Made by a program: the position numbers and the translations under genes
Source of the DNA: Clostridia bacterium
GTDB taxonomy: Bacteria; Bacillota; Clostridia; Oscillospirales; Acutalibacteraceae
DNA: 64,000 bases
Direction: 5' to 3'
Assembly: GCA_017466365.1 (NCBI GenBank)
Contig: JAFTUG010000008.1
Location: 31,511 to 95,510 of the forward strand
Notes under the pieces: model-generated
Database searches by the model: none
Told to the model about the DNA's origin: nothing
Seen by the model: only the letters and a program-made list of their open reading frames with translations
Shown here: positions 57,403-57,747 of the stretch, in pieces
Position numbering within the stretch: position 1 is the stretch's first letter
Layout: each line of letters opens with the position of its first letter

Positions 57403-57493
57403 TGGCGGAGAGAGTGGGATTCGAACCCACGGTACCCGTAAGGGTACGACGGTTTTCAAGACCGTTCCGTTATGACCACTTCGGTATCTCTCC
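57403..57493 (-). tRNA. tRNA-Ser(TGA)
   Basis: A class II tRNA on the minus strand: acceptor GGAGAGA pairs with TCTCTCC, the anticodon loop is CTTGAAA (anticodon TGA, reads TCN codons), a long variable arm (GTACCCTTACGGGTAC) is present, the T-arm is GTGGG-TTCGAAT-CCCAC, and discriminator G with encoded CCA follows. It is first in the tRNA-Ser unit. Confidence 0.96.
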
Positions 57494-57537: not shown

Positions 57538-57596
57538 TAGATTTTTTAAAACTTTATTTTAAAGCTGTCTGATTTAAAAAAATTTCAAAAAAACTA

Positions 57597-57625
57597 TTGA
57601 CAAAGCAAGAGCAGTATGATATTAT
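57597..57625 (+). promoter_or_regulatory. Consensus promoter of the candidate small RNA
   Basis: TTGACA (57597-57602) and TATTAT (57620-57625) are 17 bp apart on the plus strand, where no plus-strand gene follows. The start site would fall near 57632. Confidence 0.75.
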
Positions 57626-57631
57626 AAATTC

Positions 57632-57649
57632 AGTTAGTTGAGACTAACT
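57632..57649. promoter_or_regulatory. Inverted-repeat operator overlapping the small-RNA start, DtxR/IdeR-like
   Basis: AGTTAGT and ACTAACT form a perfect 7-bp inverted repeat around TGAG, placed right at the predicted start site. The TTAG..CTAA arms resemble DtxR/IdeR metal-regulator sites (TTAGGTTAG-N-CTAACCTAA). The regulator identity is inferred from that resemblance only. Confidence 0.5.
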
Positions 57650-57719
57650 TACATAAAACGGTTTTCAACCTCCTGAAAAGAAAGCCAGAAATAATTTTTC
57701 ATAACATTTTTTCACGAAG

Positions 57720-57747
57720 AATGCCGCCCTTACGGACGGCATTTTTT
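57720..57747 (+). terminator. Terminator of the candidate small RNA
   Basis: AATGCCG/CGGCATT (57720-57726, 57737-57743) with an inner CC/GG pair is followed by a T-run on plus. On minus it lacks a U-run, so it does not belong to the convergent DUF2019 gene. Confidence 0.8.

Follow-up and report, generated by a model that had tools for sequence, protein, structure and literature searches.

The window, as we call the whole 64,000-nucleotide stretch of clostridial DNA analysed here, contains a short unit which, taken as a whole, is probably best explained as the gene of a metal-repressed (most likely Fe2+-repressed) trans-acting RNA of about 116 nt that would block Shine-Dalgarno sites. The gene architecture, its compensatory conservation and the sharing of its operator with feo are seen directly in the genomes compared; judged from sequence, the prediction of a small RNA gene linked to the feo operator is well supported, and repression of this RNA by iron is likely. 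The covering of Shine-Dalgarno sites by the CUCC of a hairpin loop would be its best mechanism. Iron-sparing RNAs have so far been found singly, mostly under Fur; if our reading is right, a layout rule (a metal operator at the start site, a C-rich loop and a terminator) could find such RNAs in Clostridia by sequence, and testable targets would be at hand among the fermentation enzymes, namely AdhE and the Fe-hydrogenase.

Parts of the unit and their conservation in the genus

When the sequence is read directly, promoter, start-site palindrome, CUCC-presenting hairpin and terminator all lie where the original prediction had placed them (Table 1). The promoter has 11 of the 12 consensus letters and a TG ahead of the -10 box, the spacer ending in TGA; the palindrome begins 6 bases past the -10 box, so that the expected start site is covered by the operator, and it could also fold as a 5' RNA hairpin. 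The fold of a 122-nt stretch is 5 sd better than that of dinucleotide shuffles, none of the 200 shuffles being as good. In the minimum-free-energy fold a slightly different stem, GGUUUUC/GAAAGCC, surrounds the same CUCC motif with a 13-nt loop, and over the fold ensemble the mean unpaired probability of the CUCC is 0.89. The terminator is not listed by a simple terminator scan, but RNA folding does find it, with -19.0 kcal/mol and a T-rich tail.

Table 1. Features of the predicted small RNA unit and its surroundings, in window coordinates
Feature	Positions	Strand	Description and basis
Promoter	57597..57625	+	-35 TTGACA 57597-57602; -10 TATTAT 57620-57625; spacer 17 nt
Operator AGTTAGT-TGAG-ACTAACT	57632..57649	+	18-bp palindrome; read directly
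Hairpin UUUUCA-[ACCUCC]-UGAAAA	57662..57679	+	anti-Shine-Dalgarno loop; sequence, folding, relatives
Box UCAUAACAUUUUUUC	57699..57713	+	single-stranded; AUAACA and UUUUUC columns invariant in 6/6 members
Intrinsic terminator AAUGCCGCCCUUACGGACGGCAUUUUUU	57720..57747	+	RNA folding; pairs kept in relatives
Predicted small RNA, ~116 nt	57632..57747	+	fold, conservation in relatives, covariance model
Convergent neighbour ORF, 117 aa	57754..58107	-	outside unit; without Pfam match
tRNA-Ser	57403..57493	-	divergent, upstream of unit; outside unit

It is scarcely credible that the unit instead encodes a small protein or serves as leader to a gene behind it. Short frames do overlap it, two of 30 and 31 aa on the minus strand (the conservation of the minus-strand frames being judged by eye only) and one of 54 aa on the plus strand that begins within the terminator stem. 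However, as the original prediction of a unit free of ORFs had it, the ORF list of the window contains no plus-strand frame of at least 20 aa wholly within the unit, and the first ORF listed beyond the unit is convergent in five of the six loci compared below, the stretch of G012 having ended there.

At an E cut-off of 0.1 the DNA similarity search hit 27 of the 45 genomes of the genus, for the most part with short fragments, and a script applied to the fetched loci recovers the full unit in six genomes, that of the window (G000) and G003, G010, G012, G013 and G019. Among the metagenome-assembled genomes of the five relatives, three from goat colon and one from roe deer rectum are labelled Clostridia, and the fifth Oscillospiraceae. 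A covariance model was built from these six units, found first by DNA similarity, so their own scores of 98.8-121.6 bits are high by construction; the next best score among the 45 genomes is 39.2 bits. Thus no match above 40 bits occurs in 39 of the 45, which means that the unit is either limited to a clade or fast-changing; among the 15 near-complete genus genomes (>=90% complete, <=5% contaminated), 14 are without a strong match to the model. Of 300 genomes of the family the model matched 32 with an E of 0.01 or lower, and the best score outside the window is 39.5 bits; the 29 new family loci were dropped, as the 17 inspected (L127-L141, L145, L151) showed a single operator site, with three mismatches, in L132. 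A scan of named genomes gave seven loci, five being the known relatives' units, and the other two (L157, L162) were rejected since they have no promoter and look like chance. A diverged unit was also observed in the near-complete genome G018 (L062/L111 432-540, 27.9 bits); its promoter and operator are exact, CCUCU takes the place of CUCCU, and the terminator-like stem is another one.

Within the six members, the promoter is always TTGACA, 17 nt and TAT[TG]AT, the operator arms are almost invariant, and the parts fixed across the units are these arms, CUCCU and AUAACAUUUUU. As the arms hardly vary, the palindrome is read first as a protein site. In the loop region CUCCU alone is invariant and the letters of the flanking stem vary freely; the stems are UUUUCA/UGAAAA, CUUCUU/AAGAAG, CAUAUU/AAUAUG, AUCUUCU/AGAAGAU and UUCUC/GAGAA, so that in five of the six members a stem of 5-7 bp is formed by different complementary letters, and in G012 one of 3 bp. 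Summed over the members, the stem reaches 33 bp as against 16.8±2.4 when the flanks are shuffled, with none of 5000 shuffles as long. Conservation in relatives, which had been proposed as a check, is therefore borne out in that the unit is kept and its loop-bearing stem shows compensatory change. The CUCC is predicted to be unpaired with a probability of 0.87-0.98 in four members; in G012 the hairpin around the motif is poor (3 bp, P 0.60; CUCC unpaired 0.43), and for G013 pairing of the first CUCC is predicted (unpaired 0.07). In the terminator, too, several pairs survive among relatives via changes on both sides. As a further observation, the conservation of the box UCAUAACAUUUUUUC is about equal to that of CUCCU and its complement includes AAAAAUGUUAUG; the box may serve as a second seed, directed at start codons, or as a site for a chaperone.

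The RNA adjoins an MFS-type transporter gene in G000, G003, G010 and G019 (by Pfam in the window, where a 117-aa frame lies between the two), and in G012 and G013 it is found in another gene neighbourhood common to both. These data bear on the explanation that the unit is the functionless remnant of a feo-type promoter, with a hairpin and a terminator behind it by chance. Operator-promoter copies are indeed common in the family, most of those sampled standing before genes (127 of 146), and most near-complete genomes of the genus are without the unit; yet six species retain the loop motif, the box and the terminator, with stems rebuilt and in two gene neighbourhoods, and we regard such decay as very improbable.

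The operator, the feo genes and the candidate repressor

The original prediction had proposed to look for the same operator near metal-uptake genes, and it was found before feo genes. In the window genome, three operator sites that differ from the 14 fixed letters at 2-3 positions lie at most 431 bp before FeoB, as identified by Pfam. Among the 23 relatives, i.e. the genus genomes having an operator site at <=1 mismatch, a GTTAG-N6-CTAAC operator is found no more than about 800 bases from a FeoA or FeoB frame in 19, a count that covers the fetched sites and frames read by eye, Pfam having been applied to one frame of each kind; the site-bearing relatives without such a frame nearby are G004, G022, G031 and G036. 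In some relatives the sites near feo are paired, about 34 bp apart. The operator counts alone are no evidence because of the reversed controls, which gave 142 sites against 29 at <=3 mismatches in the window genome and 25 against 45 at <=1 mismatch in the genus. The combined pattern of promoter and operator stands out strongly from its control, being present in 288 of 398 family genomes, the reversed pattern giving at least four among the matches listed. In other bacteria, Fur sites are described as preceding feo (PMC545781).

The TTAG/CTAA arms of DtxR/IdeR operators are present here too, with a spacing that differs. The DtxR consensus has 19 bp. The guess of a repressor of DtxR/IdeR type fits what adjoins the operator: a DtxR-type frame does so in G008, G036, G037 and G041, and that of G008, the one on which Pfam was run, is a PF01325 plus PF02742 protein beside both operator and feo. 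A PF02742 protein was found in all 13 genomes scanned, one in each of seven genus genomes (incomplete); that of the window genome, which is about 80% complete, has about 121 aa and carries DACRIEHVIS. Its best match among solved structures is the MntR chain 2h09 (8.2e-15), followed by IdeR (4.2e-8), with DtxR also matched; its best NCBIfam model is MntR NF008273, at 91.9 bits below the cut-off of 153, and the match to the NCBIfam DtxR model is below cut-off as well. As the protein is globally most like MntR, manganese is also a candidate metal, and iron is inferred because of feo and not from the repressor protein. Control by manganese or by divalent metals in general, with a true MntR as repressor and an RNA that spares manganese or rebalances Fe and Mn, would agree with these structural and family matches; it agrees poorly with the placement of the operator near feoA/feoB in the 19 of 23 relatives (by reading) and with the repressor's own DACRIEH, which has Cys where the DAEGMEH of 2h09 has Glu, presumably the DtxR-like Cys. 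We therefore consider manganese control distinctly unlikely.

Several further operator sites were observed away from feo. In G003, G010, G014 and G031 (L082, L084, L089, L096) the operator is flanked by a methyltransferase gene and a NuoE/Fe-hydrogenase operon (Pfam on that of G010), whose first gene follows 204-224 nt downstream; by eye, the operator is also upstream of the operon's -10 box. This position would suit activation by the metal-loaded regulator, in which case regulator and small RNA would form a coherent feed-forward loop on the operon. In three of these four leaders the ribosome site CATTCAGGAGGAATG could fold into a small hairpin whose loop has AGGAG, a hairpin absent from the computed best fold of both leaders that were folded. 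In G004 (L055/L083) an operator pair precedes a YgbA_NO-type protein (Pfam) and a further frame. Moreover in L260, L264 (G068, G425) and L222 (G199), operator and promoter stand directly before a frame which, from its sequence, we take to be enolase; if so, this would be an unusual link of metal to glycolysis.

Proposed mode of action, candidate targets and known small RNAs

From the observations above we infer which protein and metal control the gene, its transcription, its target pairing and the sparing of iron. A repressor of the DtxR/MntR family loaded with metal, most likely Fe2+, would occupy the start-site palindrome and keep the gene off; under iron scarcity the repressor would leave, and feoAB and the small RNA would be produced together; the hairpin loop CCUCC(U) would then pair with the Shine-Dalgarno sequences of selected mRNAs, and ribosome loading would be blocked, probably on mRNAs of abundant iron enzymes, so that iron would be saved. 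A sponge of the CsrA type was considered and rejected, as such a motif is GGA and the loop has CCUCC.

The candidate targets were sought by complementarity. The 18-base complement, allowing <=3 mismatches, occurs at 13 places in the window genome (one being the gene itself) against two for controls, and two of the 13 have a full AGGAGG just before ATG, belonging to the gene of AdhE and to a lipoprotein-like gene. The former carries TTTTCAGGAGG, with 11 bp complementary to the window RNA; its protein has NCBIfam NF010378 as best match, the 795.7 bits of a 500-residue piece being below the full-length cut-off of 951. At E up to 1e-100, AdhE is found in four of the six unit-bearing genomes against one of the ten others searched, all counts being from incomplete genomes. 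The small RNA of G010 has a 13-bp match to the adhE leader in three other species; an adhE of G010 itself was not found in that incomplete genome. When scored by its longest exact match, adhE does not stand out for the RNAs of G003, G012, G013 and G019, since 11, 59, 15 and 46 of 188 gene starts, respectively, score at least equally.

Such results are relevant for a global dampener, whose ACCUCCU loop would lower initiation on many mRNAs with strong Shine-Dalgarno sites during metal starvation, with little choice of target; this explanation overlaps our main reading and differs from it in selectivity alone. ACCUCCU copies the tail of 16S rRNA. It speaks for the dampener that CUCCU is the sole invariant part of the loop region with the stem letters free, and that raw duplex energy, computed for 96 gene starts in the window genome, singles out no target, AdhE being 9th. 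When self-structure is allowed for, in a ranking of 185 gene starts picked by a rule made for this analysis, the RNAs rank their own leaders high instead, adhE of G000 being 2nd, nuoE of the hydrogenase operon 3rd in G003 and 10th in G010, though the ranked pairs were chosen after looking; with the shared adhE leader, the RNAs of G003, G013 and G019 (the last taken one base off) give ranks 48, 25 and 16 of 185. On balance the dampener is rather unlikely, and for the selective repressor RNA the mRNAs of AdhE and of the Fe-hydrogenase operon may be taken as leads from sequence.

As for known families, Rfam at gathering threshold gave tRNAs only, both for the whole window and for 17 further loci (the units of the five relatives, and 12 from the wider class), and with E allowed to reach 10 none of the 27 matches to Rfam is named FsrA, RyhB or IsrR. 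Matches below threshold were rejected, among them GcvB (L099, the unit of G012, 32.4 bits against a gathering score of 42, E 0.00057, one member only), STnc430 (L099, 33.9 bits against 47) and csRNA RF02379, which scores 31.4 bits for the window unit and 30.2 for L099 against a gathering score of 57. The csRNAs of Streptococcus are described as having CiaR promoter and terminator, with 40 types in the regulon, and as complementary to Shine-Dalgarno sequences or start codons (PMC3091779); they are short and have one regulator's promoter and a terminator like the window unit, but in that description they are activated by CiaR and have no metal link. The CiaR promoter motif, given there as TTTAAG repeats, is absent from the plus strand at 57540-57632.

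By description, closer counterparts are the iron-sparing RNAs. FsrA of Bacillus subtilis and IsrR of Staphylococcus are iron-repressed and Fur-controlled, with C-rich motifs directed against the Shine-Dalgarno regions of iron enzymes (PMC9410917); the C-rich anti-Shine-Dalgarno motif is alike in the window RNA, whereas the control differs, being by Fur there and by a DtxR-type operator here. MrsI of Mycobacterium tuberculosis is reported as an iron-sparing RNA of about 100 nt with an IdeR site in its promoter (PMC8628891), its control by IdeR being termed potential or predicted (PMC8628891, PMC9410917); as in the window unit, a DtxR-family repressor site lies in the promoter, but MrsI is actinobacterial and has a six-nucleotide seed, unlike the window RNA. 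RsaC of Staphylococcus aureus, derived from a 3'-UTR, responds to manganese under MntR (PMC9294342), so that it shares the DtxR-family control proposed here and differs in origin and metal response. In its sequence the window unit has what marks the kind of RyhB, FsrA, IsrR and MrsI, namely a stand-alone non-coding gene with its own promoter and terminator, an operator like that before iron-uptake genes, and an unpaired stretch complementary to ribosome sites; thus the RNA would belong to this functional kind, as a variant under a DtxR-type operator. The table of a 2022 review gives no cognate small RNA for iron-sensing DtxR (PMC9294342). In the literature outside preprints and most subscription papers, nothing was found linking Oscillospir-, small RNA, feoB and iron, and nothing on topic for iron small RNAs in Faecalibacterium or Ruminococc-.

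The same layout in the family and the order

The layout recurs in other bacteria of the same order. A promoter and operator followed 12-42 nt on by CTCC were found in 18 of 398 family genomes (13 of 135 genera) and in 33 of 394 order genomes (28 of 169 genera), the two samples overlapping, and the reversed control gave no match in either. An automatic rule divided the 46 CTCC loci examined into 19 that run from operator to terminator, where L278, L297 and L315 are doubtful because their CTCC lies inside the called terminator, and 27 that are gene leaders or unresolved, where L285, L304 and L307 look like small RNAs by eye.

The 146 promoter-operator sites sampled from among the family matches listed, with CTCC not required, divide into 127 gene leaders, 13 units running from operator to terminator, and 6 unresolved. 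Of these 13 automatic calls, L217, L228, L257, L361, L366 and L369 are, by eye, unlike small RNA genes, and the rule missed L338. CTCC is present in 5 of the 13 units against 7 of the 127 leaders (P 0.0017; 4 of 12 and P 0.008 without the window's own unit), and shuffles of the same stretches would give 2.5 of 13, a difference short of significance (P 0.074), so that an enrichment of the anti-Shine-Dalgarno motif in such units is suggestive. It is conceivable, and we put it forward tentatively, that across the order one and the same metal operator has come, again and again, to control unrelated short RNAs with C-rich anti-Shine-Dalgarno stretches; metal-starvation small RNAs would then have been reinvented many times, with the operator palindrome serving as 5' hairpin and the other sequence free to change.

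Individual groups differ in how the motif is presented. In L282-L285 (genus g47) there are two hairpins, with loops CCTCCC and TCCTTCCC; in L303/L304, CCTCC repeats lie in a single-stranded stretch; L275/L276 form another multi-member group; and L306/L307/L308 (family f14) have CTCCTTCCTCC followed by a terminator, with a doubled CUCCUUCCUCC stretch.
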